From Acinetobacter sp. YWS30-1 (GTDB lineage: Bacteria; Pseudomonadota; Gammaproteobacteria; Pseudomonadales; Moraxellaceae), in NCBI RefSeq assembly GCF_033558715.1, contig NZ_CP114606.1:2666001-2730000 (forward strand): a stretch of DNA of 64,000 nucleotides. The letters run 5' to 3'. Positions 14,729 through 51,176 of this stretch are shown here, piece by piece. A program made the translations under genes and the position numbers. The number at the start of each line of letters is the position of its first letter. Position 1 is the stretch's first letter. The notes beneath the pieces are model-generated. The model did no database searches, had not been told where the DNA came from, and saw only the letters and a program-made list of their open reading frames with translations.

Positions 14729-14748
14729 GCAGATAAGCAAGGCTAAAA

Positions 14749-15120
14749 TTAACCTTGTTTACGAGCTGGCAATTTTTCACGAATACGTGCAGCTTTACCA
14801 GATAATTCGCGTAGGTAGTAAAGTTTAGCACGACGAACGTCACCACGACGTTTCACTTCGATTTTAGCAACGATTGGAGAGTGAGTTTGGAATACACGCT
14901 CAACACCAACACCGCTAGAAATTTTACGTACTGTGAACGCAGAGTTCAGACCACGGTTTTTCTTAGCAATGACAACGCCTTCGAACGCTTGTAGACGTTC
15001 ACGGTCGCCTTCTTTTACTTTTACTTGGACAACTACTGTGTCACCTGGTGCAAAAGCTGGGATGTCTTGTTTAAGCTGAGCATTTTCAACAGCTTGTACT
15101 AAAGGATGCTTACCGCTCAT
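14749..15120 (-). CDS. rplS: 50S ribosomal protein L19
   Basis: A structural protein at the 30S-50S interface. At 123 residues it is full length, with the typical [16 protein letters not shown] start region and [18 protein letters not shown] end. It is the last gene of the rpsP-rimM-trmD-rplS operon, separated from trmD by 171 bases that contain a strong hairpin (15207-15236), so it may be partly uncoupled from the enzymes upstream. Confidence 0.97.
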
Positions 15121-18025: not shown

Positions 18026-18028
18026 CCC

Positions 18029-22459: not shown

Positions 22460-22486
22460 TTGTTAATCCTCACTGATGCTGTTCAA

Positions 22487-24673: not shown

Positions 24674-24691
24674 TGTTCTAGCCTCATCATA

Positions 24692-29724: not shown

Positions 29725-29760
29725 TAATATGATGTATGTTGATGTTGACATCCTCCAGCT
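29725..29760 (-). ncRNA. Predicted 3' end of the TnpB omega RNA and its guide
   Basis: By analogy with characterised IS605 TnpB systems, the guide-bearing RNA ends just past the right end. The scaffold end lies at 29745-29760 (minus strand), and the ~20-nt guide would be the complement of 29725-29744, starting CATCAACATA. Inferred from position only; the 5' extent inside tnpB is not defined. Confidence 0.4.
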
Positions 29761-37462: not shown

Positions 37463-37880
37463 TTACTTTGAAGAAGAGGTTGGACAAGCTGCGGGCGCAA
37501 ATTTTTTCAACACATCAGTTGCACAAGTCCAAGTACCTGCCTCATTACGAGACCAAGTCACTTTGTTACCACTTAAAATACTTGCTGCACTTTGACCGAA
37601 TTCTCCCTCAATAGTTGCTTCACTCTTCGCCAAATCGATTTTAACTGTAGGCATACCTTTAGTAGCTGGCGCATCTTCACCTAAAAGATTTGAAGCAGTA
37701 GCACCAGTTTCACAATCAGCAGTTGCTTTACCTTCTAATAAGCAGTTCTCTACAGCAGTTTTAATACCACCAAGCTCACTCACAACTCTGCTAACTTGTG
37801 ATTTGGCAATGTAGTTTTGATATTGCGGAATCGCAATTGCAGCCAAAATACCGATAATTGCAACAACGATCATTAATTCA
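37463..37880 (-). pseudogene. pilA: 3' part of the host major pilin gene pilA, cut off from its start by the island
   Basis: Encodes the pilin from Glu5 of the mature protein onward: [18 protein letters not shown], the alpha-1 helix, and a C-terminal domain with Cys pairs ENC/DCE and WTC/AACP, ending in TSSSK. No leader or G/FTLIE cleavage site is left. The frame can be read from an ATG at 37891 in the island (MECD then ELM), but there is no ribosome binding site and no export leader. The missing start, leader and promoter are at 50947-51176 on the same strand. Joining the two at the shared TGA gives one uninterrupted prepilin of about 150 residues. Confidence 0.9.
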
Positions 37881-37887
37881 TCACATT

Positions 37888-37910
37888 CCATAAGTCACTT
37901 TGTATGGACA
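37888..37910 (+). repeat. Left end repeat of the island
   Basis: CCATAAGT-N7-TATGGACA, 7 bases inside the left junction. More TGTCCATA copies follow: a perfect palindrome TGTCCATATGGACA at 37956-37969 and one copy at 37999-38006. Likely recombinase binding sites. Confidence 0.75.
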
Positions 37911-38166
37911 CGCTCCAAACTGTTGAATTCTATTCATTTACTCCATTTTATATTTTGTCCATATGGACATGCTTTTATAACGACAATTTTTTCAAGTTTG
38001 TCCATATCCTCAAAAAATACGTAAGGTGTTAAAAACATGTTTTAGTCCGCCTAATTAAAAATGAGCAGTCACCAAAATATATTTTTGTATTCATACCGAC
38101 CTTAAAATTTTATGTTTGTTATGCGTCATGCGAAATATAAAAAATTTTATGCTCAAAAACAGATGA

Positions 38167-38439
38167 ATGATGACCAACAACGAGTTTATAGAAATACATC
38201 TAGATGCTGAAACAAAGCAATTGGCATAACGAACTGCCACTACTCTAGGTTACGCTACACTCAGCGATTTTTTTATTTATTTAATTCAAAATCACGCACC
38301 GCAAGTTTTACAAGAACACTCTCATATTCAGTTAAGTCATGTTCAGTTCGAGCAATTTATTGAAGTATGTCAAACTCCAAATAAGGTCCCTACCCGATTA
38401 AAACTGACTACCCAGCTTTTAGATAAAGAAAATTTTTAA
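38167..38439 (+). pseudogene. DUF1778 (TacA-like) antitoxin gene with internal stop
   Basis: Reads as a ribbon-helix-helix antitoxin of the DUF1778/TacA type: an N-terminal IEIHLDAETKQLA, then a TAA stop at 38227-38229, then RTATTLGYATLSDFF and a C-terminal region with SHVQFEQFIEVCQTP. The stop falls where the family usually has Glu. No GNAT toxin (TacT) gene follows, as would be expected for an intact pair. It is a decayed module within the island. Confidence 0.6.
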
Positions 38440-38448
38440 GGAGCTGAA

Positions 38449-38703
38449 ATCAAAGTCATTACATGTGCTGAGCTGCAAGACAATTTAGCGGATATACTCG
38501 ATAACGTTATAGACGATCATGCACCTGTACTTGTTAATAGAGAAGATAAACAAGTCGTGGTGATAATAAATCTAGATGATTGTATTGCCTTTAAAGAAAC
38601 AGCGCACCTACTCAAAAGTCCTGCCAATGCAAAACGGTTACGCGACTCAATCGCGCAAATTGAAGCAACTGAAACAACGTGTCATAAACTCAGTAAAGAG
38701 TAA
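38449..38703 (+). pseudogene. YefM-type antitoxin remnant without a start codon
   Basis: The frame matches YefM along its whole length: DDHAPVLVNR and AHLLKSPANAKRLRDSI correspond to the most conserved blocks of E. coli YefM. The expected start codon, 5 bases after a good AAGGAG, is ATC (38449-38451) instead of ATG. Immediately after the stop, about 8 codons read as the start of a YoeB toxin (RLRFTDDG) before similarity ends at about 38730. A dead yefM-yoeB pair. Confidence 0.65.
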
Positions 38704-38840
38704 GATTGAGATTCACTGACGATGGTAGAAATAGCGCCCTACTATACCCAGAAAATTTCAAGCGATAGACTTCAACATAAAGAACGACATCACAACACCT
38801 AAAAAAGAACAATAGAATATATGTGATACGCATCACACAA

Positions 38841-38888
38841 TGACAATATTTGTCCAAAGTATAAAATTCAACCTGACAAAATTTGTCA
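38841..38888 (+). promoter_or_regulatory. Two PilR-like activator sites upstream of the island pilin gene
   Basis: TGACAATATTTGTCC (38841-38855) and TGACAAAATTTGTCA (38874-38888) are TGACA/TGTC inverted repeats. The second lies about 93 bases upstream of the sigma-54 promoter, the same distance as the matching site of the host pilA promoter. The PilR assignment is inferred from the known TGTC-type PilR sites of Pseudomonas. Confidence 0.6.
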
Positions 38889-38980
38889 CTTTTTAACAAA
38901 AATATACAGCAGAATTAAAAGTCTTAAATTTTTTATGTGTAAGGTGCTGTTTTTCTGTGTAAATTGTCTATAATAAAAGT

Positions 38981-38996
38981 TGGCACGTTTAGTGCT
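38981..38996 (+). promoter_or_regulatory. Sigma-54 promoter of the island pilin gene
   Basis: TGGCAC-N5-GTGCT matches the -24/-12 consensus TGGCAC-N5-TTGC. It is nearly identical to the host pilA promoter at 51055-51069. Confidence 0.82.
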
Positions 38997-39055
38997 AATA
39001 TTAAAATAGCTTACAAAGCTTATAACTAAATTAACAACATTTGTGGAGAATGTTT

Positions 39056-39523
39056 ATGAACGCTCAAAAAGGCTTTACGCTCATCGAGTTGATGATTGTT
39101 GTCGCTATTATCGGTATTCTTGCTGCAATTGCGATTCCTGCTTATCAAGACTACACGGTGCGTGCTAAAGTAACAGAAGGTTTAAATTTAGCTAGTCCAG
39201 CAAAAGCAATCGTTGCTGAAAATGCATCTAATGCACAACCTTTTGCACGTGGTTATGATGGTGCTAAAACTGCTAATGTAGACAGCATTACAATTGCAGA
39301 AGGTACAGGTGCTATTACTATTACTTATACTGCAGCAGCAGGTGCTACAACAGGCGCTGATACTATTGTTTTAACCCCAACATATAAAGCAACTTCAACT
39401 GCAACTGCTCAAACAGCTTTGTCTGGTACAGCAACAGCAAGTACAGTACCTACAGGCGCAATTGAGTGGGCATGTACTGGAACTATGCCTAATAAATATT
39501 TACCAGCGAACTGTCGTGCTTAA
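39056..39523 (+). CDS. Complete type IV major pilin carried by the island
   Basis: A 155-residue prepilin: leader MNAQKG, cleavage before [19 protein letters not shown], then a Thr/Ala-rich globular domain and a C-terminal disulfide loop (WACTG and ANCRA). Start is ATG 39056, preceded by GGAG at 39045-39048; an earlier in-frame TTG/ATG would spoil the leader. It has a sigma-54 promoter and PilR-like sites, a leader almost identical to that of pilA, and a terminator. The globular domain is unlike the host pilin and ends in Arg-Ala rather than Ser-rich TSSSK. It probably replaces the disrupted pilA in the pilus. Confidence 0.92.
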
Positions 39524-39539
39524 TAATCGATAGATTGTG

Positions 39540-39572
39540 AAAAAAAACGCATCAAATTCGATGCGTTTTTTT
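39540..39572 (+). terminator. Terminator of the island pilin gene
   Basis: AAAAAAACGCATC and GATGCGTTTTTTT pair around AAATTC, 17 bases after the stop. Confidence 0.88.
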
Positions 39573-39609
39573 GTTTACATGAAAATAATATGTTGTAAAG
39601 GAAGGTAAA

Positions 39610-40515
39610 ATGAAAGGCGTTAAAAGTAAAATTTGTGATAGAAGTATTACGGGGTTTATTGATATTTTAGGTTTTGGTAGCAAAGTTTTAGCGATTAAGG
39701 ATGCTGATGAGAAAAAAATCGAGGAATTAGTTAATGCAGTTAAAGCTGTTCGTAAAAATTTTGACCATATAGATGGTGAAACTACTGATGATGAAGACAA
39801 ACTGATGGTGGAATATCAAAATATTGCCAGTATCACAACATTAGCCTTTTCAGACAGTGTCATTTTTAATATGCCATTAAAACCTGAAATTCCTAGAGAT
39901 GAAGAATTTGGGGAAATCATGAACCAAGTCACATCTCTAGCATATGCCCAAGCTGAATGTATATTTGACGGTTTTTTTATTCGTGGTGGGGTTGATCTTG
40001 GTTGGTGGTATAAGGAAAATGATCTCTTAGTCAGTCAGAGTTTAGCAAGAGCATATCTTGCAGAATCAAAAGCGAATTATCCAATAATCGTGATTACAGA
40101 TAGTTTTAATGAGTACTTTGAAAATCATCTCGATTTAAGACTTTATGGTGATACGAATATATATTCATCAAACTTTGAATACGTAGAGATACTACAAAAA
40201 GATGGAACTACAGAAAAATATTTGATGTTGGATTATATCCGAATTGTTTTGGAAAGCCTAACGGGTGTCACGCTTGAAGTTCAAGAAAATAAAAGAAAAG
40301 CAACTTCAGGAGAAGAAAAAGATAAGATTATGGAAAATGCACGTAAAATAGCAATAAAGCAATGGTTAATTGCACATGCAAAAAAAATACAAGAGGCATT
40401 TAACAATGCTACGCAACAAGATGTCAAAGATAAATATGTGTGGTTAAGTAATTATCATAATCGGAAAGTCGAACAATTTATGGCAGGAGATGAGTGTCTT
40501 TGTAATTTGTGTTAA
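39610..40515 (+). CDS. Cargo protein with a class III nucleotidyl-cyclase-like core
   Basis: A 301-residue soluble protein. The opening block GFIDILGFGSKV (Asp18) and a second block TLAFSDSVIF (Asp82) look like the two metal-binding strands of class III cyclases. They are followed by FFIRGGVDLGWWY and SQSLARAYLAESKANYPIIV, which fit the usual RIGIHxG and VNxAxRLE regions. It is not a close match to housekeeping adenylate cyclases, and the spacing between the two Asp residues is larger than usual, so it may be inactive or have another nucleotide substrate. It has a strong AAGGAAGG ribosome binding site. Placement next to the recombinases suggests a cargo or defence-type function; that is a guess. 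Confidence 0.55.
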   Translation: MKGVKSKICDRSITGFIDILGFGSKVLAIKDADEKKIEELVNAVKAVRKNFDHIDGETTDDEDKLMVEYQNIASITTLAFSDSVIFNMPLKPEIPRDEEFGEIMNQVTSLAYAQAECIFDGFFIRGGVDLGWWYKENDLLVSQSLARAYLAESKANYPIIVITDSFNEYFENHLDLRLYGDTNIYSSNFEYVEILQKDGTTEKYLMLDYIRIVLESLTGVTLEVQENKRKATSGEEKDKIMENARKIAIKQWLIAHAKKIQEAFNNATQQDVKDKYVWLSNYHNRKVEQFMAGDECLCNLC

Positions 40516-40518
40516 TTA

Positions 40519-40719
40519 TTATGGGGGGTATTCTACTCTTGTAGGGTCGAATATTAAACCATTTAATAATTTGATTTTATATCTAGGGACATTTTTAGCG
40601 ATTGGTTTTACATCAGGTGATTGACCTTGCTGTATATACCTCACCCTACCAAAAAAATTGATATAGGGTTGTTGTAGGGTGAGATGCACTGCATTGTAAG
40701 GTAGTCCCAGTTTATGCAA
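40519..40719 (-). CDS. Possible small protein after the recombinase operon
   Basis: A 66-residue frame starting with TTG, 8 bases after the preceding stop, with a good AAAGGGAG ribosome binding site. It contains a basic middle (NVPRYKIKLL) and no domain I recognise. Position and spacing favour a fifth gene of the recombinase operon, but coding is not certain. Confidence 0.35.
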   Translation of the reverse strand: MHKLGLPYNAVHLTLQQPYINFFGRVRYIQQGQSPDVKPIAKNVPRYKIKLLNGLIFDPTRVEYPP

Positions 40720-40729
40720 AATACTCCCT

Positions 40730-41086
40730 TTAGCCTGACATTTTCCGCCTCAACTCAAAATTTTCCACCAACAGCGAATTACACTTTTCCAGTAATATTT
40801 CATAATCTTTCTGTAACTGCTCATAATCACTTTTCACCGCTTTGGTTTTACTTTTAGCTTGTTCAACCTGCTGTGCAGGCGAAAGAACATTTTGCCCCGC
40901 TTGCTGTGCAGCTAGCTCAATTGCCTCAATTAATGCAGCATGACGGCTCTTTTTAATCGAACCACGCTTACGTCCAGCTTCCATTGCAACCGTATCATTA
41001 TTAATCGCAGAGCCTTTCGGTAGAACCTCTGGTTTGTTGGCTTTTAATCGCTCTAAAGCAGCGTAATAATCATTAAGTGCACTCAT
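40730..41086 (-). CDS. Small coiled-coil protein of the recombinase operon (TnpC-like)
   Basis: A 118-residue protein. The N-terminal half is basic with a possible DNA-binding helix (TVAMEAGRKRGSIKKSRH near 32-50), and the C-terminal half is a coiled coil (VKSDYEQLQKDYEILLEK). It follows the third recombinase by 3 bases. In Tn554 a small coiled-coil protein, TnpC, accompanies two recombinases and sets orientation and frequency of insertion. The comparison rests on layout, size and architecture, not on a measured similarity. Confidence 0.7.
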   Translation of the reverse strand: MSALNDYYAALERLKANKPEVLPKGSAINNDTVAMEAGRKRGSIKKSRHAALIEAIELAAQQAGQNVLSPAQQVEQAKSKTKAVKSDYEQLQKDYEILLEKCNSLLVENFELRRKMSG

Positions 41087-41089
41087 ATT

Positions 41090-43147
41090 TTACACCTCAA
41101 TATTAATCGTTTGAATTCTTTGAATCATTTTGTTTAAAGCCAAAATCTCACTGTCCATTTGCCCGTATAGCAGACTGTTCTGTACTTGCATATCTCGCTG
41201 CCGTTGTAGCCGCTGAACCGCTTTTTGCATTTTTTCAGCACTTGTTGCATCAAACACAGCATGGGCACAACTCAAACAACTGGTAATCGCAGTAAACGAA
41301 ATTTTTTCGCAAGAATCAGGGTTGGTACATGCGCCAAACAAGCTAGGCTTATAGGCAATTTCACCCTTTTTCATACGCTTAATGGTTTCATCACGGTTTG
41401 GAAATACTGTGAGTAATTGCTCGCGGTCTTTTTGTAGTTGTAAATACGTTCCCGCACCACCGAGCAAGCGACTAGAACTATTAATTACACCATCTTCAAA
41501 CTGAGCATAAGAATGCACCAAGCGCTGATATTCCAGTTCTTGAATAAACTCTTTTTGACTGTCACTCACTAAAATATTTGGTGCAAATACCGCATTATTA
41601 CGGTAATACAACGTCATAGACTCTGTTAGATGCTTAAATTGGACTGACAAAGCGCCAAGCCCGATCATGCCTGAACGAGCGCCATACACAGCCAGTGAAC
41701 GCCTGAATTGATGGGTACAGATATTCCAGTACTCACCAACTTGGCAGTCTTTTTCTTCTCGCCAATTGCGGAAACCATCAAAAGCTTCAAGCTCGGCGAT
41801 ATCACTTTTAGTGATTCGTAGTTCATCTCCCAATTTTGCTAGAAGATGCTGACGATAATCATTAAAATTAGTCTCTGTGCGAGTCGGAGCACCTTCAAAA
41901 TTAGAGATAAAATCCGTTTCATGCTCAATATTGCGGTTATTTTTATTTCGATGCTTTTGCGAGTATAGCGTTGGAAATAATGGGTATTCAGCAGGATTAG
42001 ACATATCATAGTGAGGATTGAGTAAGGCGTAGACTTCACCAATACTTTGTGCTGCATTTACGCCTACTTGAATATCTGCAAACGTGATCCAATACGTCGA
42101 TTTATTTCCACCCCCGTGTAATTTTGATGTATAGCCCATAATGACATGCACAAGATGCTCGTTACTTTGAATAGTTTGATAGCAATCAGAAGACAGCTGA
42201 TTCACTTCATTATCTCGCATCCCAGTAAACAAATGAATCCAAAGCTTAGCCATACCTTGAATCAACGTCATATAACGGGTGAGGTTGGCATGTTTTTGAA
42301 TCTGATGATTCTCAAAAATCTGAGTTAACCCCAGCAAATCACGTGCATCGTTGAAACTTATCGCTCGTTTAGCACGTCTAAACTCAACAGGCATCAGGGC
42401 AAAATTTACATCTTGCTGAATCCGTTGAAACCATTTCAGCAAAGCAGGCGCATTTTGATTAAATTCGTTTAATAAATCTGCTAAAGCATTAATTAAGGCA
42501 ATATAAATACGTGACGGAATAAGTTTTGTTTGCGGACCGACTTTACCTGATCGCAAGCGTATTTGTGCAGCAAGTCTTGCTAAATGCTCAATCGGTTTAT
42601 ATGTACTAAACGCAGGAATGAGCAATGGGTACTGCTGCTGTAATGCAAAACAATCCGTTAAAAATGCTTTAATGTGAATGGCTTTTTGATAGCTCACACC
42701 AACATAAGCATCATTTACTTTTGACATATAAGCAACATCGCTAAATAACTGCTGCAATGTACAGCCATTCTTATATGCAATTGCTGCAAACTGGCGTAAA
42801 ACCGTATGCCGCTGTTCAATACTTTTAATAATCGACTTACCAGATTTTATATAAAGCAAAGCAAAACTGATTTTTTTCATTTCTGCCCGAATTTGGCAAA
42901 AGAGAAAATCATCTTCACGAGCATTTTCAAGCCAACTATCAAAATTCAGGCGACAATCACACTTCGGTAAATATGGAGAAAGATCCCAGATATTGTCTGA
43001 ATAAACTGACAATATCTCACCACTCTTCATTCGCGATAATACAAAAGTACTTGGAACAGTCAGCTGATTATTCTGTAGATTGTACTCATCAGGTAAAAAC
43101 TGCTCAGCAATACCCAATGAATATAGATATGAATTAAATGAACTCAT
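41090..43147 (-). CDS. Tyrosine recombinase 3 of the island, with C-terminal Cys cluster
   Basis: 685 residues from ATG 43147; ATG overlaps the previous stop as ATGA and has GGTGG upstream, so I prefer it to a GTG three codons earlier. The catalytic set is complete: Arg in FTGMRDNEV near 311, HxxR in CTHQFRRS near 480, His in FKHLTESM near 506 and Tyr in TLYY near 515. After the catalytic domain is a Cys cluster (GACTNPDSCEK and SCLSCAHA, about 607-627) likely to bind zinc. It is much longer than ordinary phage integrases. Third of three coupled recombinase genes. Confidence 0.85.
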   Translation of the reverse strand: MSSFNSYLYSLGIAEQFLPDEYNLQNNQLTVPSTFVLSRMKSGEILSVYSDNIWDLSPYLPKCDCRLNFDSWLENAREDDFLFCQIRAEMKKISFALLYIKSGKSIIKSIEQRHTVLRQFAAIAYKNGCTLQQLFSDVAYMSKVNDAYVGVSYQKAIHIKAFLTDCFALQQQYPLLIPAFSTYKPIEHLARLAAQIRLRSGKVGPQTKLIPSRIYIALINALADLLNEFNQNAPALLKWFQRIQQDVNFALMPVEFRRAKRAISFNDARDLLGLTQIFENHQIQKHANLTRYMTLIQGMAKLWIHLFTGMRDNEVNQLSSDCYQTIQSNEHLVHVIMGYTSKLHGGGNKSTYWITFADIQVGVNAAQSIGEVYALLNPHYDMSNPAEYPLFPTLYSQKHRNKNNRNIEHETDFISNFEGAPTRTETNFNDYRQHLLAKLGDELRITKSDIAELEAFDGFRNWREEKDCQVGEYWNICTHQFRRSLAVYGARSGMIGLGALSVQFKHLTESMTLYYRNNAVFAPNILVSDSQKEFIQELEYQRLVHSYAQFEDGVINSSSRLLGGAGTYLQLQKDREQLLTVFPNRDETIKRMKKGEIAYKPSLFGACTNPDSCEKISFTAITSCLSCAHAVFDATSAEKMQKAVQRLQRQRDMQVQNSLLYGQMDSEILALNKMIQRIQTINIEV

Positions 43148-45081
43148 GATATCCACCCCAAATCAATTAGCAATTCAAAATGATTGAGCCAATAGGCATC
43201 TAAATCACCACTTTCTACTTCTTCTTGAATTGAAAAAATACGATCACGTAAGTTTTCATAAGTATCTGATAATTCGTTGAGTACTTCGTCAATTCGGTGT
43301 AGTACAACCCCAAACTGCTGTTCCCACTTGATTGTGTCCGTGGCTTTTTGCTTAACGTAGCCGAGTAGGCTTTTCAGTGATAAAAGCTTACGCACATCTT
43401 TATCATCAGCGTGGACTGCATAGTATTGACAGAATAAGCAATGCTCAAATTGCTGACAATTGGGTGTAGGGGCCCGTTCAGTAAAACCAATAGCTTTTTC
43501 AGGCTGTGGATAGATAGAGGCACATGCACCGACAGGTGAGGGTTGAGCATCAATAGTTTCATCTAACATTTGCACCGAAATTCGTTCAAGCGTTCGAGTT
43601 TTTGAGACGGCAACTTCTCGCAGCTCATTAAAAAACTGTGAAATTTGCTGGGCTGCATCTTTGAATGAAGTACGTGCATAATTATTTCTTGCCGTATCGA
43701 GAGAGTGACCCATGACTTCAGCTTCAAGCAGTAGGTCACCAGCGCTAAACTCAACAGTTTGACTGCTTTTATGCTTACGCCACTGTTGCGGCGTAATCCA
43801 AATCATTCTTGGGAAAATGCGCTGAAAAAGCTTTTTCATTAATTGTAATCTGCCGTAGCTGACAGGTCCCAACTGTTGAATTTCATTGCGTAATGGGAAG
43901 ACGAAATCACATGCTTCATCTTGAATATACCATTTACGCAGTTCCAGAATTTTCCTAAAAATAGGTTCAAATTGAACCCCAAATTCTGGGTAGACTGTCT
44001 TGTCACCTGCACGGCTTTTTGTGCCAGAAAATCTGCGCCCTTGAGTACTTGGTAGAATTTCCATCGTATCCAGTTGCAACTGTTGAGCCGTGTCTAAATT
44101 TGCCCCCGTTTGTGCGATAAAGAGCAACATGCCGATGGCAAGACCGTAGGAGGCAAGTCTTTCACGCTCTACATGTCGCTTGTCTTTGTTGCTTTCTTCA
44201 AGTTTACGGATCGCTTGATTACGATTTTCACGTAAACGCTTTCGATATTCACTATCCTCAGCAAGCCCGAAATCCACCAACATTTTTGAGAAATCGGGAA
44301 TAGTTGAATATTTAGACAAATAGCTGTGCATATCAAACTGAATATATTGTTTTTCAGTTTGATGATGAAAGCCTGAATAAAAATAGAACTCTTCCTGATC
44401 CACGGATTGAAAGTGTGCGGGAAAGTTACCCGCCTGTACAACGATACGATGGATTTCCGAAAATACATTCAACAAAGTCGCATACGTCTTTTGATGATCC
44501 TCCTGTGCAATCGGTAAAACAGGAACATCATAACGCTGCGACTGTACTTGCATTGCTTGACTAGCAATATCAATTTCATGACAATCAAATACATATGCGA
44601 TCAGTTTTGCAACATAACGCTGATACTGCTTTGCGGTATGTGCAGCCAAGTTATCGTCATCAGTATCTGCAAGCAAAGTGCGATCAACTAAATATTTGCT
44701 GTAACGACGATAGGCATCGATCATGCTGTCCTTATTGGATAAATCAAAAACTTTCTTTTGCTGATCAATCCAGTCCAAAAATATTTTGATAATGGAATAG
44801 AACAACCCTTTTGATAGATCCGATCCATCCATTTGTAGTAAATAATCAGTGAAACATTTTAAAAAATAGCGTCTTTTTTCATCAAAAGAAGCAACAAGCT
44901 CATGGTCGGATACACCGGAAGAACATGCTCTTTTAGCAAAAAAGAATGTACCCATATCTAAAGTTTTAAAAGAAAATGAGGCTGTTTTATCTTTGAGCAC
45001 AAGTATGAGATGCTCATGCTCAGTAATCTGCTTATGAGTATCAGTGATATGTACAAACAATGGAGTACGAATGAAATTCAT
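43144..45081 (-). CDS. Tyrosine recombinase 2 of the island, with altered active site
   Basis: 645 residues. The fold can be followed (IAQTGANLDT near 325, WITPQQWRKHKSS near 430, MGHSLDTARNNYARTS near 458), with the second Arg, His and Tyr present. The first catalytic Arg is replaced by Asn in TGAN, and the HxxR motif reads QQWR. It may therefore be a structural partner or have reduced activity. A Cys pair (EHCLFCQYY) near 553 could bind metal. It overlaps its neighbours on both sides by ATGA, so all three recombinases are translated together. Confidence 0.82.
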   Translation of the reverse strand: MNFIRTPLFVHITDTHKQITEHEHLILVLKDKTASFSFKTLDMGTFFFAKRACSSGVSDHELVASFDEKRRYFLKCFTDYLLQMDGSDLSKGLFYSIIKIFLDWIDQQKKVFDLSNKDSMIDAYRRYSKYLVDRTLLADTDDDNLAAHTAKQYQRYVAKLIAYVFDCHEIDIASQAMQVQSQRYDVPVLPIAQEDHQKTYATLLNVFSEIHRIVVQAGNFPAHFQSVDQEEFYFYSGFHHQTEKQYIQFDMHSYLSKYSTIPDFSKMLVDFGLAEDSEYRKRLRENRNQAIRKLEESNKDKRHVERERLASYGLAIGMLLFIAQTGANLDTAQQLQLDTMEILPSTQGRRFSGTKSRAGDKTVYPEFGVQFEPIFRKILELRKWYIQDEACDFVFPLRNEIQQLGPVSYGRLQLMKKLFQRIFPRMIWITPQQWRKHKSSQTVEFSAGDLLLEAEVMGHSLDTARNNYARTSFKDAAQQISQFFNELREVAVSKTRTLERISVQMLDETIDAQPSPVGACASIYPQPEKAIGFTERAPTPNCQQFEHCLFCQYYAVHADDKDVRKLLSLKSLLGYVKQKATDTIKWEQQFGVVLHRIDEVLNELSDTYENLRDRIFSIQEEVESGDLDAYWLNHFELLIDLGWIS

Positions 45082-46505
45082 GACAAATCTCCTGCTAAAT
45101 TCACAGAGGACTGTACGTATTTCATCAAGCTAGACTCATACTCATGCTGAATTTTATTGCGCCATTGCAAGCGTGATTTATAGTTCAAATACTGCAAAGT
45201 CGTACTAATATTGCGATGCCCCATCCTAGCTTGCACATATTCGACTGCTGTCATAGCCGTATGCCCTTCGGGTAAATGCTGTAACTGGCTTTCCAATAGA
45301 TTCATCCCAAAACTGGCACGTAAGTCATGGAATTTAAAGCTTGGAAATTGCGGATCAATCAAACGAATCTCGGGTAATAGCACGACTTTTAAATAACTAC
45401 GCACCGCTTCACCTTCATATAGTTTAAGCCTCGCCCCAAACGAATCAGAGGCTTTGATCTTATCGATCAGTTCTTGCTGTTCAGCTTTGCTGGTGTAGAA
45501 AGGTGTGCCAAGCTTAGTGAGAAACACATAGTTTTCATCCGAGTCAGCATAGCTAGACTTCTGTCTACGCTGTTGCGCTTGTGGGCTATTAATATAAATT
45601 TTAAGATCTTGTGCCAACCAATTCGGGATGAGTAGCGTCATCGGCTTTTGAAATTTGGTATCAATGCCTGTACCCGACCCAATAGGTAGACGAATAAAAC
45701 CCTGACTATCAGGCTTACAATTAAGTAAATTTTTGATTCGTAAAGTACAAATCGTCTGTAAGCGAGCACCTGTGAACAAAGCAAGATAGAACATCAACTG
45801 ATATTCACGTGATGATTTTTGCAATGCTTTCAATATGACTGCTTGCGATTCAACACTGAGTGGGCTTAATTCACCATTATCCTTAATCACTTCAGAATTT
45901 GGGGCTTTGGCTGGAACATGAATCACAAGATCATGCGACTTAATTGCCATTTTTCTACGTGCGCCAAACTCATTATCTACAGCAATATATTTGTAAACAT
46001 CTTGGAAAGGAAGTCCATAACGTTGATGGTCAACTAAGTCTTCCGTTACAAGAAATCGATAAAAGTTCACTACTGCATTAATTCGACCACGTGTAGAACT
46101 GGCTGAAATTAGACCTACATTCGCTTGCTCAATCAAACGAGCACGATATTTAAAAATCGCATTCGACTGTTTTAGTTTGTGGAATTTCAAACAGTCCAGC
46201 TGCTCATCTTCTAAAAAACGTTGAAAATCAACCAACTGATTCGCAATAGATGCAAACGTTTTAAAATCGTACTGTATTGTTTGCTGTAGTTTTTTCAGCA
46301 AGTACAGATTAAAAAATTCTGATGGGCTGCCATCTCCCTGAATAATCATAGGGAATTCTAGGTAAGCATCACCATATTTTTCGAATTCTGCATCATTTAA
46401 ACAACGGGTTGCCTTAACCAACGTCAATAACTGAAATTTTTTAATGGTCACGACTTTAGCTTTAGACTGGTAGCGTGACTGACCATTTTTAAGTTTATTG
46501 CTCAT
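45078..46505 (-). CDS. Tyrosine recombinase 1 of the island
   Basis: 475 residues with a full catalytic set: Arg in FTGARLQT near 248, HDLR near 393, GH near 430 and Tyr in TTLQYLNY near 439. The N-terminal part (about 60-180) looks like a SAM-like core-binding domain. First gene of the recombinase operon. The AGGAGG ribosome binding site is partly inside a hairpin at 46515-46533. Confidence 0.87.
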   Translation of the reverse strand: MSNKLKNGQSRYQSKAKVVTIKKFQLLTLVKATRCLNDAEFEKYGDAYLEFPMIIQGDGSPSEFFNLYLLKKLQQTIQYDFKTFASIANQLVDFQRFLEDEQLDCLKFHKLKQSNAIFKYRARLIEQANVGLISASSTRGRINAVVNFYRFLVTEDLVDHQRYGLPFQDVYKYIAVDNEFGARRKMAIKSHDLVIHVPAKAPNSEVIKDNGELSPLSVESQAVILKALQKSSREYQLMFYLALFTGARLQTICTLRIKNLLNCKPDSQGFIRLPIGSGTGIDTKFQKPMTLLIPNWLAQDLKIYINSPQAQQRRQKSSYADSDENYVFLTKLGTPFYTSKAEQQELIDKIKASDSFGARLKLYEGEAVRSYLKVVLLPEIRLIDPQFPSFKFHDLRASFGMNLLESQLQHLPEGHTAMTAVEYVQARMGHRNISTTLQYLNYKSRLQWRNKIQHEYESSLMKYVQSSVNLAGDLS

Positions 46506-46514
46506 TTTGAGCCT

Positions 46515-46533
46515 CCTGTTTATTAAAAACAGG
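46515..46533 (-). promoter_or_regulatory. Hairpin covering part of the ribosome binding site of recombinase 1
   Basis: CCTGTTT and AAACAGG are perfect complements 5 bases apart. On the minus strand the 3' arm runs into AGGAGG, the ribosome binding site 6 bases before ATG. The fold would limit translation of the recombinase operon. Confidence 0.55.
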
Positions 46534-46615
46534 CAAAAAGCGACTTTGAGGTAGGATTGACAAAAATGCCCCTATCCATCAAAATTGAAGTGTCTGGACG
46601 CCAATCAAGACATTC

Positions 46616-46647
46616 ATAAAAGCTCATGTTCCCGCATGGGCTTTTAT
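46616..46647. repeat. 13-bp stem between the RHH gene and recombinase operon
   Basis: ATAAAAGC-T-CATG and CATG-G-GCTTTTAT pair around TTCCCG (12 Watson-Crick pairs plus one T-G pair). It lies 27 bases past the minus-strand RHH stop codon. Without a T run on the minus strand, it may be an attenuator or transcript-end structure. Confidence 0.5.
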
Positions 46648-46673
46648 ACTTTTTGCCGAATGAAAAAGTTAAT

Positions 46674-46838
46674 TCAATTTTTTAATTGACCCTCCGTGTT
46701 TTGCTTAAATTGAGTTAGAATAAAATTCACTTGTGAATTTAATGATCTGTTTTGCAACAAAGCTTCTTCTTTCAACCAGCTTTTTAATACAGGTGAAATA
46801 CGTAACTTGAGTTGTGTCGAAGAACTTGATAATTTCAT
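46674..46838 (-). CDS. 54-residue Arc-type ribbon-helix-helix protein
   Basis: A short gene. It reads MKLSSSSTQLKLRISPVL then KSWLKEEALLQNRSLNSQVN and a short tail. TQLKLRIS is the DNA-contacting strand and the following two helices (AxxxNRSLNSQVNFIL) match the Arc/MetJ fold. It diverges from the RHH-HTH gene at 46935 and lies upstream of the recombinase operon, over paired operator-like repeats, so it probably represses one or both. Previously it would be overlooked because of its size. Confidence 0.72.
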   Translation of the reverse strand: MKLSSSSTQLKLRISPVLKSWLKEEALLQNRSLNSQVNFILTQFKQNTEGQLKN

Positions 46839-46841
46839 ATG

Positions 46842-46881
46842 AACCAACCTGGTTTAATAATGTGGTTCATCAATAAACCAC
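46842..46881. promoter_or_regulatory. Operator-like repeats between two divergent RHH genes
   Basis: AACCA-N3-TGGTT (46842-46854) and GTGGTT-N8-AACCAC (46862-46881) share the TGGTT half-site. They cover the start region of the 54-residue RHH gene and the promoter region of the 46935 gene. Confidence 0.55.
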
Positions 46882-46934
46882 TTTCCAATTAAAAATCTTT
46901 CCCATAATGTAGTCAATAATGGATTGTATTAATT

Positions 46935-47879
46935 ATGTTAATATTACAAGATGCTCAACTGAAAATTCGTCTCCCAAGTGACCTAAAACAAAAAATTGAA
47001 GAAGTTGCAAATCAAGAAAAACGCTCAATGAATGCAGAGATAGTTGACCGCTTGGAAAAAAGCTTTCACTTTGTTACTCCCCCTGAAACAAACCCGAAAA
47101 ATTTAAAACTTGCACACTATCAAATAATTGACCGAAAAGTAGAAGTTGCTGAAAGACTTGCTCATAGCCTAAATCTAATTAATAGCTTCAAAATGAATGC
47201 AGTAAAATACTCACACATTGCTCAAATATGTAAGTATGAAAATGCTGAAGTTTTTCTAAATTGGCTACAAGCCAAACAAGAACCTTCTTTTACTGAGTTA
47301 GAAAAAATTGCAGCCTATTTATATATTGATCAGGATTGGTTGATACACGGAGATGGGCATCCCATTCTATCCTCTAACTGGCAGATCGAAAATAATGTAG
47401 ATTCAAACATCAATTCTCTGTTTTCTCATGTTGATCCTGTTTCCAAACAGGAGATTGAGGCTCAGAAAATCATTCTTGTTAGAAATATATCTGAAGAGGG
47501 CAATCTCCTTATCATTAAAGTATTACAAGACTGGCGTGTCGAAGTGCTAACTACCAATATTCACGTTTCTACGTACAATGGAGTGGGTGGACAAAATATG
47601 TTAGAAAGTTTTGCTCGCCTATGTTCACAACTATATAAATCTACAAAATATCTAACAAGAACAAATGCCTACTTAATTAATAATGAATTATTTGAAAAAA
47701 TTCTAACGTGCGAAGAGCACCCATTAGCCCTATTAAAAAAAGAGCACACAAGTATTTGGTGGGAAGCCTTTTGGAATGCAACTGATTCTAATAACGTTCG
47801 AAAGGACTTTTTAGACGTATGGCATGACTGGGATCAAACATCCTCTATTGCCATTAATGCCCTTTCTAAAAAACTATAG
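46935..47879 (+). CDS. Regulator with N-terminal RHH and central HTH-like segment
   Basis: A 314-residue protein. Residues 1-45 are an Arc-type ribbon-helix-helix (AQLKIRLPSDLKQKIEE, KRSMNAEIVDRL). Residues about 90-150 resemble a HTH unit with the recognisable end FLNWLQAKQEPSF, TELEKIAAYLYIDQDWLIHG, as in XRE-type repressors. The C-terminal ~160 residues are of unknown function and may sense a signal. Divergent from the 54-residue RHH gene, with no strong ribosome binding site. Likely the island's decision switch. Confidence 0.65.
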   Translation: MLILQDAQLKIRLPSDLKQKIEEVANQEKRSMNAEIVDRLEKSFHFVTPPETNPKNLKLAHYQIIDRKVEVAERLAHSLNLINSFKMNAVKYSHIAQICKYENAEVFLNWLQAKQEPSFTELEKIAAYLYIDQDWLIHGDGHPILSSNWQIENNVDSNINSLFSHVDPVSKQEIEAQKIILVRNISEEGNLLIIKVLQDWRVEVLTTNIHVSTYNGVGGQNMLESFARLCSQLYKSTKYLTRTNAYLINNELFEKILTCEEHPLALLKKEHTSIWWEAFWNATDSNNVRKDFLDVWHDWDQTSSIAINALSKKL

Positions 47880-47939
47880 ATGAAGACTAATTTATGAAAT
47901 CATCACAACTTTCAGCACATCACCCCATGTAGTGATGTG

Positions 47940-48146
47940 TTAACCATTGGTATATTCAAATAAATCCTGCATATTGCAATTAAAATATTTGCACAATGTA
48001 TCAGCGACTGAAAGTTCAATTCGTATTGCTCGGTCATAGTAAAGGCTTGTTAGTGTATTGCGATTAATACCAGTCGCCTGAGCTACCTCACTTAACTTTA
48101 AAATTTTTCGCTCACCCATCAAATTTGACAACCTACATCTAATCAT
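47940..48146 (-). CDS. Small XRE-family transcriptional regulator
   Basis: 68 residues consisting almost only of a HTH domain: LKLSEVAQATGINRNTLTSLYYDRAIRI is helix 2-turn-helix 3 (positions about 17-44), and VADTLCKYFNCNMQDLFEY is the usual Cro/C1-type end. It diverges from the gene at 48306, and two copies of AACCTA-N3-TAGGTT-type operators lie between them. It probably represses itself and the divergent gene. Confidence 0.82.
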   Translation of the reverse strand: MIRCRLSNLMGERKILKLSEVAQATGINRNTLTSLYYDRAIRIELSVADTLCKYFNCNMQDLFEYTNG

Positions 48147-48169
48147 AACAACCTTTAAATTAAAAAATT

Positions 48170-48236
48170 AACCTATGGCAGGTTAATTTAACTTGATAAA
48201 TAATCTTTAGCATGATAATTTAACCTATAGTAGGTT
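48170..48236. promoter_or_regulatory. Paired operators of the XRE regulator
   Basis: AACCTATGGCAGGTT (48170-48184) and AACCTATAGTAGGTT (48222-48236) have the same centre-to-arm geometry, 52 bp apart (about five helical turns), between divergent starts. Confidence 0.65.
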
Positions 48237-48305
48237 ATTTTGTTTCATAGGGAAACAAGTCAACCTTTCTGTATATCATTATATAATTTCTATGCGAGTT
48301 CAGCT

Positions 48306-48572
48306 ATGAATAACTATTTTTCTCCAAAATTCTCTGTTTCAGAAGAAGTCCGCTCAACTGCTATTGCTCTAATCAAAGAGTTTAATATTGACCGTACATT
48401 TGATTTAGCTTTGTTTCTGAATGTTAATCCCAACTTAAATGACCAAGATGCGACTTTAGCCTGGGTGAATTATTTTGAAAAAAATCAACATGATCTCAGT
48501 GACTTCAATCATGTTAGACGCCACTTCATGAAAAATTTTCCAAAAATTATGTTTGCAAATTTCAGTGAATAA
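48306..48572 (+). CDS. Hypothetical protein controlled by the XRE gene
   Basis: 88 residues from ATG 48306 (MNNYFSPKFSVSEEVRS); the longer frame would start at a TTG inside the operator and is unlikely. Mostly helical and acidic, with an aromatic-rich centre (DATLAWVNYFEKNQHD). No family recognised. Followed by a perfect terminator. Similar small proteins next to XRE regulators sometimes counteract or assist them, but nothing here shows that. Confidence 0.6.
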   Translation: MNNYFSPKFSVSEEVRSTAIALIKEFNIDRTFDLALFLNVNPNLNDQDATLAWVNYFEKNQHDLSDFNHVRRHFMKNFPKIMFANFSE

Positions 48573-48580
48573 AATAATCA

Positions 48581-48613
48581 AAGGGAGATATCAAATATCT
48601 CCCTTAATTTTTT
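48581..48613 (+). terminator. Terminator of the XRE-linked gene
   Basis: AAGGGAGATAT-CAA-ATATCTCCCTT is a perfect 11-bp stem followed by AATTTTTT. Confidence 0.85.
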
Positions 48614-48677
48614 ATAGCAATGTCTCTTATGGTAATCTCAACAAAAAGTAAAATTCAATTTAATTGGTTGTAAAAAT

Positions 48678-49298
48678 ATGGAATCATTTATAAAAGCAGG
48701 CCATATGGAGCCTTCAGTCATTGTTTTTGACGTATTTGGCACACTTGTGAAGATAGGGGAAAGACGCTCCCCATATAGAAAATTAATGAAATGGCTTAAG
48801 GAAAATGGTCGACAGCCAAAACCTGATGATGCCAAATTTATTATGTCTCAAAATTTAAGTTTTACTGAACTTATAAAGTTGCTAGGGATAAATATTCCAG
48901 AGCAATTACTACAAGAACTTGCGCATGATTTAGACGAAGAAATACAATCTATTATTTTATATGAAGATACGCTATCAACTTTGGAAGAATTAAAAAAATT
49001 GGGATTCAGATTGGCATTATGCTCAAACTTAGCTATGCCATATGGAAAAGTTGTTTCTTCATTTTTACCTTCTCTTGATGCTTATGCTTGGAGTTATGAG
49101 GTTGGAGCAATTAAACCAGAGTCACAAATTTATCAATATTTAATTGATAAATTACAATGTCATGCCAAAGACATTTTGTTTATTGGAGATACAATTTTAG
49201 CTGATTACAGTGGTCCAAATGAATTTGGTATGTCAGCACGTTTAATTGATCGTAAGAATGGTCAAAAGCTGGCAGATGTTTTAAACGACATACTTTAA
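48678..49298 (+). CDS. HAD-superfamily hydrolase
   Basis: 206 residues. Motif I is VFDVFGTLVKIG near 16-27 (nucleophile Asp, with Val replacing the more common second Asp's neighbour), motif II is LCSNLA near 117, motif III Lys is in GAIKPES near 147, and motif IV is FIGDTILADYSG near 173. The cap is small and helical. Probable small-molecule phosphatase; the substrate is unknown. It is island cargo with AT-rich codons. Confidence 0.78.
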   Translation: MESFIKAGHMEPSVIVFDVFGTLVKIGERRSPYRKLMKWLKENGRQPKPDDAKFIMSQNLSFTELIKLLGINIPEQLLQELAHDLDEEIQSIILYEDTLSTLEELKKLGFRLALCSNLAMPYGKVVSSFLPSLDAYAWSYEVGAIKPESQIYQYLIDKLQCHAKDILFIGDTILADYSGPNEFGMSARLIDRKNGQKLADVLNDIL

Positions 49299-49340
49299 CA
49301 ACTCGTGGACGCCCCCCTAATAGTGAATACTCACAGCCCC

Positions 49341-50117
49341 TCATCTTTCCATTTTTTTAAATTCTGCAATTCGTTCATCAAGCTCCAGAACCCATGCTGG
49401 TTTTATATGTGGCACATCTGGACGCTCAACACCTTGATGGTCAAAAAACTTATACACCATTGCCGCCAACTTGATAAACGCCAGTTCAAACGTATCTGCC
49501 CAAACATCTAAACGATAATCATGATAATGCTCTTGGTATAATTTACCACCATCTTCTACTTTATTGAGATGTGAGCCAGTCTCTAAATAAATCACTAATT
49601 TCCCATCATCTTCATCATTATATGCGCCGTGATAAACATTTTGGCAATGCCCCCATGTATTCCAATGCCATGATGGTACATCGCCAATAACCGTCCAAAA
49701 AGCTGGGTGTGTATCAATAAAATGATAGGCAGTTAAAAAGTCCGTTGGATTTGCGAGATATGCTTGCTCATTTTCAAAGGCAGTCTGTAAAGCAGATTGT
49801 AAATGCTCAAATTTATTTTGATCGGTGTAGGAAAACAAACCACTAGAAAGATGCTCAGAGGTTTTAAAAAATAGGCAACCATTCTCTTTATCCTCACCAA
49901 AATATTGATAAACCTCTGGTAGAATCTGTAAATCTGTAGGTTTGACATGATGGATCTGGTGTTGTACGTCTTTTAAGCTTTCGTGAATTGCTTCCATACG
50001 ATCAGGGTAAGTGACGACAAGTTTAGTATCTCGCAGTGATAAAATTGCTGGTTCAGTTATTTGGGGTAACTGTTCTAATAACCAGTCTGGTAATTGTTTT
50101 AATTCAGTCGGTTGCAT
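49341..50117 (-). CDS. Hypothetical cytoplasmic protein
   Basis: 258 residues, acidic, with no signal peptide or membrane segment. It has a distinctive Trp/His-rich block (PSWHWNTWGHCQNVYHG near 148) and EDGGKLYQEHYHDYRLDVWADTFE further on. I do not recognise a family. It is convergent with the HAD gene. It could be an immunity or stress protein, but I have no evidence for a role. Confidence 0.65.
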   Translation of the reverse strand: MQPTELKQLPDWLLEQLPQITEPAILSLRDTKLVVTYPDRMEAIHESLKDVQHQIHHVKPTDLQILPEVYQYFGEDKENGCLFFKTSEHLSSGLFSYTDQNKFEHLQSALQTAFENEQAYLANPTDFLTAYHFIDTHPAFWTVIGDVPSWHWNTWGHCQNVYHGAYNDEDDGKLVIYLETGSHLNKVEDGGKLYQEHYHDYRLDVWADTFELAFIKLAAMVYKFFDHQGVERPDVPHIKPAWVLELDERIAEFKKMER

Positions 50118-50341
50118 TTTTAGTTATCCTATTTTTTAAAAATTTCAACTTGTTACATACGTTACACAACATAATTTGTGCAAGTTATTTATAGCATTGG
50201 TTATATAATGCCCGTATCATCTACTAAATAAAAATGAGTATCTGGAATGTTGCAAAGTGCCGTCCTAGATATTTTAAAAATAGAAAAAATGTGTTTTAAC
50301 TGGTGGTATGGGTATATTTCCATTGAGCCATTATAGATTTT

Positions 50342-50872
50342 TCATCTTGGTTTAGATTTTCCTTTCTTTAGTTTTTCTATATAAGCCTCACATTGAGCAG
50401 GCAAACCAAGATGATATTTTAAAGTGCTATCCGCTTTTGCTGTCACATACTCAATATTTTGAATTTCACGCTGCTGAGCAAAAACTTGAATCGCAGGATA
50501 TAACTGTTCTGAACAACTCGCATCATTACTAAAATATTTTAATGTCTTGGTTGTAGAATAATAAATGGCAGCAAACAATCGCCCATCTTTAAACACAATC
50601 GCTGATGAAGCATCTAAACTGCTTCCAGACCGACCTTCATAATACAGAGCCTCATCTGTTTTTAGTAAATAGGGCGCTGAGTAATTATCGAAATTAGATT
50701 GAAATTTTAGATAATCATGCTTTAACAATGTTTGAAGTTCTGTTTGGATTTTTGGATGCAAAACAATTTGAGGAATTGATGAAATATTTGAATATTGAAT
50801 TAAGTCTAGTTCTTGAGCATGAGTAAAAACGGAGATCGAAAAAAGTAGAAAAAGATAATATTGATTCTTCAT
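50342..50872 (-). CDS. Hypothetical secreted protein at the right end of the island
   Basis: 176 residues with a signal peptide (MKNQYYLFLLFSISVFTHA, cleaved before QELDL). The mature part has two cysteines (DASCSEQ and PAQCEAY) that could pair, and a basic tail KKGKSKPR. No family recognised. It lies directly downstream of the orphaned pilA promoter and 5' fragment in the same direction, so it is probably transcribed from the sigma-54 pilA promoter. Confidence 0.68.
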   Translation of the reverse strand: MKNQYYLFLLFSISVFTHAQELDLIQYSNISSIPQIVLHPKIQTELQTLLKHDYLKFQSNFDNYSAPYLLKTDEALYYEGRSGSSLDASSAIVFKDGRLFAAIYYSTTKTLKYFSNDASCSEQLYPAIQVFAQQREIQNIEYVTAKADSTLKYHLGLPAQCEAYIEKLKKGKSKPR

Positions 50873-50891
50873 ATCAAATTTATTATTTTTA

Positions 50892-50914
50892 TGTCCATAT
50901 TGACTTACTTATGG
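50892..50914 (-). repeat. Right end repeat of the island
   Basis: On the minus strand it reads CCATAAGT-N7-TATGGACA, the same 8+8 bases and spacing as the left end in inverted orientation. Another CCATAAGTGTCCATA copy lies between it and the junction (about 50928-50942). Confidence 0.75.
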
Positions 50915-50946
50915 ATTGTTCATTTTATATGGACACTTATGGAGTA

Positions 50947-50981
50947 TCAATAAGGGTAAAACCCTTTTGTACTGTATTCAT
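50947..50981 (-). pseudogene. pilA: 5' fragment of host pilA
   Basis: ATG at 50981 reads MNTVQKGFTLI and then GA of the Glu codon, exactly up to the junction. In the island it continues as DTP and a stop at 50937-50939, giving a 14-residue peptide. It is preceded by the same GTGGAGAATGTT leader as the island pilin. The remaining codons, starting ELMIVV, are at 37463-37880 on the same strand. Confidence 0.9.
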
Positions 50982-51054
50982 AACATTCTCCACAAATGTT
51001 TTTGTTTATTTATAAGCCTAAAGAAAAAGCTCATTTAGCTTAATTTTATATTTA

Positions 51055-51069
51055 GCACTAAGTGTGCCA
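51055..51069 (-). promoter_or_regulatory. Sigma-54 promoter of host pilA
   Basis: On the minus strand TGGCACACTTAGTGC fits TGGCAC-N5-TTGC (-24/-12). It is about 74 bases upstream of the pilA ATG. It now faces island cargo. Confidence 0.82.
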
Positions 51070-51161
51070 AGTTTTATTATAATAAAATTGAGAGAAAAAA
51101 CAGCAATTTAAAAAAATATTTTTATTTTTGTAATCTTTGTGTGTTCTTTTGTGCAACTAAC

Positions 51162-51176
51162 TGACAAAAATTGTCA
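51162..51176 (-). promoter_or_regulatory. PilR-like activator site of host pilA
   Basis: TGACAAAAATTGTCA is an inverted repeat about 93 bases upstream of the sigma-54 promoter, matching in sequence and spacing the site ahead of the island pilin. Confidence 0.55.

Follow-up and report, generated by a model that had tools for sequence, protein, structure and literature searches.

Introduction

In Pseudomonas aeruginosa, pilin alleles vary together with modification or accessory genes, a covariation that recurs at the locus analysed here, and we know of no dedicated recombinase element in that species that splits and replaces pilA.

Strand-biased circularizing integrative elements (SEs) are recognized, by the working criteria in the available text of Idola et al. 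2023 (PMC10214605), by an attB site split between attL and attR, imperfect inverted repeats at the joint and a 6-bp spacer, and the published SEs have a median size of 15.7 kb. Tn6283, or SE-6283, inserted in bcp (PMC5991714), encodes a homologue of the gene it breaks, as does the element described here, and its authors propose partial compensation; it differs in its target gene, the homologue is 54.8% identical, and the text available to us reports neither family-wide carriage nor recoding. The Vibrio cholerae recA mobile element (PMC4405046) likewise uses a fixed intragenic site and brings a divergent gene copy, but, in the sections of the report at hand, the target gene has an essential role in repair and does not encode a variable surface protein, and excision leaves an empty site. 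Tn552-II (PMC12486829) shares a donor-derived spacer and a gene resembling its target, tgl, for which its authors propose a rescue role, and its recombinases are related to those of Tn554; as far as the available text goes, it differs by a 7-bp spacer, by tnpABC genes without a Tfp counterpart and by the retention of the target sites in tgl, as stated by its authors.

Here we analysed a 64-kb stretch of an Acinetobacter genome (the window), in which the host pilA is split at LI/ELM by an element of this general kind that carries a complete pilin gene (Table 1).

Results

Relative L049 (genome G135) has the best-matching intact gene at the orthologous position; this uninterrupted pilA shares its first 35 coding bases with the window and then continues ATTAATG, and therefore the two pilA pieces represent one gene, as the preliminary description of this DNA had proposed. 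Its 5' piece (50947-51176, minus strand, with 35 coding bases) was found where it had been placed, whereas the 3' piece, placed at 37463-37880 (minus strand), lies there but begins at 37877, as 37878-37880 belong to the attR spacer. The orthologous site is intact in relatives, which bears out the precise insertion of a recombinase island, although its extent, previously given as 13 kb, could be specified to the base. The proposed joining of the pieces at a shared TGA did not survive, as the TGA at the left junction is coincidental and part of a foreign 6-bp spacer. The complete pilin gene on the island, its most interesting part, was absent from that description. PilA at this locus is very different between close Acinetobacter relatives, and the 64-kb window holds no tRNA genes.

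Table 1. Features of the element and the interrupted pilA locus (positions in the window)
Feature	Position	Strand	Basis
Host pilA, 3' piece, beginning ATTAATGATCG	37463..37877	-	intact orthologues in relatives
attR spacer (6 bp), reading TGATGA in pilA sense	37878..37883		junction comparison
Mobile element, 13,063 bp	37884..50946		ends read at both junctions
Left terminal motif CATTCCATAAGT	37884..37895	+	compared ends
Sigma54-like promoter motif TTGGCACGTTTAGTGCT, upstream of cargo pilin	38980..38996	+	sequence
Complete cargo pilin gene (155 aa), in opposite orientation to pilA	39056..39523	+	Pfam Pilin 5.3e-15, N_methyl 7.9e-11
36-nt block of cargo pilin, synonymous codons unlike native pilA	39071..39106	+	codon comparison
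301-aa ORF after cargo pilin	39610..40515	+	no family match
srap-like gene, 118 aa	40730..41086	-	protein comparison
intB-like large tyrosine recombinase, 688 aa	41090..43156	-	protein comparison
tfp-like protein, 645 aa, without two catalytic Arg	43144..45081	-	catalytic residues
intA-like tyrosine recombinase, 475 aa	45078..46505	-	Pfam Phage_integrase 4.4e-9
Other cargo: Arc-like regulator, HTH gene, HAD hydrolase	46935..50872		conservation among elements
Other cargo: small conserved ORF, two ORFs of unknown function	46935..50872		conservation among elements
Right terminal motif TACTCCATAAGTG	50934..50946	-	compared ends
attL spacer (6 bp), reading TATTGA in pilA sense, as in intact pilA	50947..50952		intact relative
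Host pilA, first 35 coding bases, ATG at 50981	50947..50981	-	sequence; intact relative
Host pilA sigma54-like promoter motif TTGGCACACTTAGTGCT	51054..51070	-	sequence

The assignment to the SE type is well supported. As in the SEs of the available text (PMC10214605), the genes are ordered intA-tfp-intB-srap with a non-catalytic second gene, a split attB is kept in attL and attR around a 6-bp spacer, the attL x attR joint deduced from the ends consists of the imperfect inverted repeats CTTATGGAATG and TACTCCATAAG, and the size is near the median. In Tfp an invariant N328 replaces the first Arg and HxxS replaces HxxR, whereas catalytic residues are retained in IntA and IntB. In hhalign comparisons with the experimentally active SE on pAQU1, IntB reached 97% and IntA 95%, while Tfp (9.7%, E 0.0033) and Srap (2.8%) are too diverged for a clear match; Srap gave 89.6% against the fourth gene of a similar operon on a Vibrio plasmid. 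Unlike the SEs described in that text (PMC10214605), the element targets pilA and carries a pilin in every copy with the operon, and its operon, usually at the attL end, lies 4.4 kb inside (intA start at 46505, element end at 50946), a feature outside the three working criteria. By the logic of replacement-gene (RME-like) elements, a homologue of the broken gene is on board. Other classes were set apart by their descriptions: GInt (ginABCD) lacks the first catalytic Arg in its third protein, whereas in this element that Arg is missing from the second protein, and R, HxxR, H and Y are all present in the third; RIT elements have three catalytic recombinases of 315-410 aa, against 475, 645 (non-catalytic) and 688 aa here; and Tn554 (tnpABC) has no counterpart of the Tfp-like gene. 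PADLOC returned no match for the window's 301-aa ORF.

The origin of the spacers could be followed in genome G065, which holds two element copies identical over 16,433 bp, only one of them in pilA. GATCGA, the spacer at attL in the pilA copy, recurs as the attR spacer of the other copy. The pair displays the SE spacer rule directly, and the available SE text (PMC10214605) likewise describes a donor's attL spacer at attR in a second copy. The window's attR 6-mer, TGATGA, fits neither the element end nor intact pilA, and given the rule observed in G065 we read it as the probable fingerprint of an earlier donor site. Both junctions could be read in 14 elements, of which 11 have two different 6-mers and three have the same 6-mer on both sides.

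A search of other Acinetobacter genomes, already suggested in the preliminary description, found the right end (at most 3 mismatches; the first two bases of the pattern, GA, are host-derived) at 17 places in 16 of 173 genomes, while the reversed control pattern had no match in these 173. All places but one, the second copy in G065, come after a pilA leader, and with 16 of 17 places in pilA and a control without matches the association is not due to chance. No close plasmid copies were found in PLSDB, where all 45 records matching Tfp are below 60% identity, and a search of 249 Moraxellaceae genomes gave matches in only one genus besides Acinetobacter (E 1e-27 to 2e-30). Carrying a pilin is apparently a trait of this SE subfamily, as no pilin motifs were found near distant Tfp relatives (24-30% identity) in 12 loci (L088-L099).

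A complete pilin gene lies immediately inside the left end in all 14 distinct elements with the operon, with an open reading frame, a sigma54-like motif before it and the same orientation each time; three of 16 left ends have no adjoining pilin. The variable part of the pilin can be wholly different even in elements that share 97.7% identity across operon and right arm, and divergence in this part shows no correlation with how closely the elements are related (Mantel r 0.08, 597/2000). At the sequence level, modular exchange of the pilin is established, as are the ends, the target, the spacer rule and the universal cargo pilin. Pilin-modification-type genes follow the cargo pilin in half of these elements (7/14). 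Apart from the cargo pilin, the window's genome gave no full-length match of PilA type, and a weakly sensitive pattern, which recovered both known leaders in eight of the 16 carrier genomes, one in seven and none in one, detected no pilA-type leader with an ATG beyond these two; the same search also gave one 3-mismatch match without ATG. Two genomes (G018, G103) have lost recombinase genes and retained the cargo pilin, and in two others (G054, G170) pilins at the pilA locus are in inverted orientation.

Near its start, the cargo pilin is written in different codons from native pilA. The target half B' ATTRATG is present in 62 of 72 native pilA genes and in none of the 14 cargo genes, and a permutation test on the 36-nt block gave 0/10,000 (165/10,000 for the next 36 nt). 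The native set leaves out L165 and L167 (element-borne pilins), L066 (an extra recoded pilin), L062 (a remnant) and L168 (a truncated row); the block excess is 4.28 with these 72 genes and 3.86 with the initial set of 77. The cargo-native contrast is 0.98 in the block, 3 times that of the promoter region, and 0.09 in the leader codons between. Within the block, leucine codon entropy is higher in cargo than in native genes (2.07 vs 1.38; 2.32 vs 0.85), the cargo leucine codons mostly avoiding native states. Some positions, with GGC, ATC, GTC and GCT codons, are almost fixed among cargo genes. The cargo genes also form a group of their own in the promoter region (excess/native ratio 0.16-0.30; cargo-cargo distance 0.138 vs native-native 0.380). 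Two occupied sites (ACTCATG) resemble the state of four cargo genes.

Discussion

Taken together, the locus is quite probably an SE-type element whose preferred target is the conserved beginning of pilA, the gene for the major pilin, and which, bringing a substitute pilin with a pilA-type promoter, changes the pilin type of its host. Here we propose that IntA, IntB, Tfp and Srap, with enzyme roles taken from the SE papers, would form a circular copy retaining six bases beside the intA-side end, an intermediate that we infer, and that this circle would insert into another pilA between its six spacer bases and B' (ATTAATGATCG). This would break the host pilA and leave the cargo pilin to serve as the cell's PilA-type gene, with a change of pilin type and, in half of the elements, with modification-type genes travelling along. 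Replacement of the host pilin by the cargo pilin is likely, and the cargo pilin is presumably expressed and building pili.

Synonymous recoding round the crossover might, in addition, shield the cargo pilin from the element's own recombinases. We consider it somewhat short of an even chance that this is a natural recoded-rescue element, in which the target region was rewritten under selection, the recombinases spare the substitute pilin and the remainder is freely exchanged. Its rival, at close to an even chance, is that the codon difference reflects descent only, cargo pilins inheriting a common 5' region from the promoter to about codon 12, with no selection and with only the 3' part exchanged with chromosomal pilA. 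The separate grouping of the cargo promoter regions and the almost fixed codons speak for such inheritance, whereas a contrast that peaks in the block and nearly vanishes in the leader codons, together with leucine codons that are more varied than the native ones and yet mostly avoid their states, speaks against descent alone. Since cargo and native genes differ in the promoter too, shared descent accounts for part of the recoding; selection is plausible, but confounded with it. Given the ACTCATG occupied sites near the cargo state, protection by recoding would be incomplete.

That the cargo pilin is a mere passenger, with carriers lacking pili or using another pilin, agrees with its inversion relative to the pilA operon, but we regard it as unlikely in view of the frame kept open in every element behind a conserved promoter motif, the lack of a second full-length match of PilA type in the genome of the window, the lack of a third leader among those that the weakly sensitive pattern detected in the carriers, and the retention of the pilin where recombinase genes were lost. 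In Moraxella, pilin phase is switched by inversion, and a similar switch between cargo pilin and pilA could draw on their opposite orientation, their common first codons and the inverted pilins of G054 and G170; with a single cargo orientation among the 14 elements and a recoded site within the cargo pilin, it appears very improbable. Insertion of an ordinary cut-and-paste island with duplication of a short target would explain the TGA readable at both window junctions and the three elements with agreeing 6-mers, yet target-site duplication, and with it the shared TGA, is ruled out by the 11 elements with differing 6-mers, and the transfer of a spacer in G065 with the other copy still in place leaves such an island hardly any credence.

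The preliminary description knew of no account of this element; its kind is known, namely SEs, but the titles and opening lines of abstracts in the literature searched named no SE that targets pilA or carries a pilin, although one might figure among the 37 SEs catalogued with PMC10214605.

A pilin-swapping element, often with modification-type genes, would offer a direct route to PilA diversity among close Acinetobacter, and its acquisition would look like a swap of pilus type. Because pili function in DNA uptake, twitching and the attachment of phages, a host might remain transformable with the element and yet have an altered phage profile. Should selection underlie the recoding, the element would parallel in nature the engineered homing drives that carry a recoded rescue gene. 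If our reading is true, this element family would be a vehicle that swaps the pilin type, often together with modification genes, between Acinetobacter strains.

Results

Both pieces of pilA lie where the preliminary description had placed them, on either side of an island said to be inserted without loss of a base (see the table). A relative without the element (locus L049, genome G135) has an intact pilA in a locus that is the same as the window's, and the first 35 coding bases of its gene are identical to ours and continue with ATTAATG. Among 88 loci tested, 77 have an intact pilin behind a pilA leader (four of these later proved to be element-borne, extra or remnant pilins), six are interrupted by the right end of the window's element and five gave nothing. 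Read in pilA sense, the right junction is ..TTTTACCCT-TATTGA-TACTCCATAAGTG.. and the left junction ..CTTATGGAATG-TGATGA-ATTAATGATCG.. The right end is present at 17 places in 16 of 173 Acinetobacter genomes, in which its reversed control pattern has no match, and a pilA leader precedes it at 16 of the 17 places. A pilin 3' part adjoins 13 of the 16 left ends seen, the exceptions being the second copy in G065 (L038), L040 (G161) and a contig of G063 (L047). A target duplication was rejected, as the 6-mers at the two junctions differ in 11 of the 14 elements with both readable.

The recombinase operon has the order intA-tfp-intB-srap. In alignments, IntA and IntB retain the R, HxxR, H and Y residues, while Tfp has an invariant N328 in place of the first Arg and HxxS in place of HxxR. 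Compared by hhalign with the SE of pAQU1, IntB (97%) and IntA (95%) match their counterparts, while Tfp (9.7%) and Srap (2.8%) have no clear match; Srap is similar (89.6%) to the product of gene four in a comparable operon on a Vibrio plasmid. The 2023 paper (PMC10214605) reports the pAQU1 SE to be active. Close operon relatives (Tfp about 80% or more) occur in 14 of 175 Acinetobacter genomes, including a Tfp fragment only, at a contig end (G063), and a Tfp with stops (G079). Remoter SE-like operons (L088-L099; Tfp identity 24-30%) are present in other Acinetobacter genomes, with no pilin motifs found nearby.

Two copies of the element in G065 are identical along 16,433 bp. Their attL and attR spacers are GATCGA and TAGATA for the copy in pilA, and TAAATG and GATCGA for the one in a non-pilin site. 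The six bases that border the pilA copy on its intA side thus recur at the opposite end of the second copy, with the pilA copy still in place.

All 14 distinct elements (the G065 copies counted as one) carry a cargo pilin gene, separated from the left end by 767-775 or 1130-1172 bp, and all 14 have a GG-N10-GC sigma54-like motif upstream of it, as do 59 of 73 native genes. The window's genome otherwise matches the cargo pilin only in short N-terminal stretches (40-57 residues) and the broken pilA. Genes behind the cargo pilin in seven of 14 elements appear to be of pilin-modification type or like pilA's native neighbours. L035 and L042 have genes of PglL or O-antigen-ligase type, and L043 a fragment of one; genes of phosphoethanolamine-transferase or sulfatase type are in L034 and L038; L034 and L037 have methyltransferase-like genes and also homologues of the native neighbour with a beta-lactamase fold; and homologues of the native 244-aa neighbour, here called TfpZ-like, are in L034, L035, L038 and L046. 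ORFs homologous to the window's antitoxin-like remains occur in other elements.

Across 12 elements, identity ranges from 0.78 to 1.00 for Tfp and from 0.14 to 0.55 for the pilin variable part, the two being uncorrelated (Mantel r 0.08, 597/2000). The elements L035 (assigned to Acinetobacter sp. ANC 4862) and L036 (assigned to A. baumannii ACIN00150) are 97.7% identical in operon and right arm (9,582 bp); elsewhere the only stretches that align in order are 125 bp by the left end and 182 bp around the start of the pilin, and a second srap-like piece of L036 (240 bp) also aligns with L035. In many cases the variable part of a cargo pilin is closest to a chromosomal pilA or to an interrupted 3' part.

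Features of the window and of compared loci
Feature	Locus	Coordinates	Remarks
pilA 5' piece	window	50981-50947	minus strand; ATG at 50981, 35 coding bases
intA, tfp, intB, srap	window		475, 645, 688 and 118 aa
Cargo pilin, complete	window	39056-39523	inside left end, inverted relative to pilA; Pfam Pilin 5.3e-15, N_methyl 7.9e-11
Phd/YefM-kind antitoxin gene remains	window	38180-38700	between left end and cargo pilin; judged by eye
pilA 3' piece	window	37877-37463	minus strand
Transposase-like and TnpB-like ORFs	window	35171-36103 and 29759-30817	element flank; judged by eye
Cluster of several pilus-type genes	window	17050-25132	12-20 kb from split pilA; several genes like those of minor pilins, and a PilY1-like protein of 1476 aa
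PDC-S31 match	L034	4731-5465	defence-type cargo
GmrSD-type restriction enzyme	L043	13492-15378	defence-type cargo
GmrSD/HNH-like fragment	L036	16750-17025	defence-type cargo
Remnant	L192 (G170)	10865-11606	cargo-orientation pilin beside srap remnant (61% identity)
Element	L165 (G018)	about 3090-14834	both ends and recoded pilin
Two cargo-orientation pilins	L191 (G054)	about 2600-4180	between pilA's upstream gene and pglL

Recoding of the insertion site

We compared 14 cargo with 72 native genes, after removal of four rows that had been wrongly labelled and one that was truncated. Over the 36-nt block with the crossover, cargo and native genes differ by a mean of 9.22 nt (5.52 within cargo, 4.35 within native), a contrast reached by 0 of 10,000 label permutations; the corresponding means for the following 36 nt are 6.33, 6.02 and 6.03 (165 of 10,000). 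The consensus blocks encode the same 12 residues, and the differences are thus synonymous. ATTRATG forms the B' half in 62 of the 72 native genes and in none of the 14 cargo genes (Fisher 4e-10, without regard to relatedness).

The excess/native ratio is highest in the block (0.98), against 0.09 in the preceding leader codons, 0.05 in the next 36 nt and 0.16-0.30 in the promoter region. The promoter contrast arises because cargo promoters resemble one another, and common descent therefore accounts for part of the recoding. Cargo genes vary more than native ones in the leucine codons of the block and mostly avoid the native states there, which speaks for selection. Two occupied sites carry ACTCATG, close to the state of four cargo genes, and the L034 cargo gene has cargo-type states at only 3 of 10, both of which argue against complete protection. 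That the recoding is selected protection is possible, with our judgement inclining slightly against it.

In the G170 remnant, where a srap remnant was all that was found of the operon, the pilin shows native codons where the element inserts. Recoding of the block persists in G018 and G103, in which tfp, intA and intB were not found; by tblastn, srap was likewise not found in L165 (G018), where glycosyltransferase- and flippase-like genes stand at the expected place of the operon. L167 plus L100 (G103) retain the right end, recoded pilin and srap, with glycan-type genes and transposase copies inside. The two L191 pilins have the same N-terminal protein sequence, one recoded and one with native codons.

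Discussion

According to the SE survey (PMC10214605), the spacer behaviour in G065 is the rule published for SEs, and the element shows all three features by which its authors recognise them; the position of intA, 4.4 kb from its end, is unlike that in described SEs. The survey also states that identification of the termini failed for most of the SEs in Acinetobacter. Elements bearing a homologue of the gene they target are already known: Tn6283 carries a bcp-like gene (PMC5991714), Tn552-II carries tgl (PMC12486829) and the recA mobile element (PMC4405046) likewise carries a homologue of its target. As far as our literature searches reach, three things are new: pilA as the target, a pilin cargo that is universal and highly variable and comes with modification-type genes, and the recoding of the target block. 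Taken together, it is likely that the element is an SE and that it replaces the pilin.
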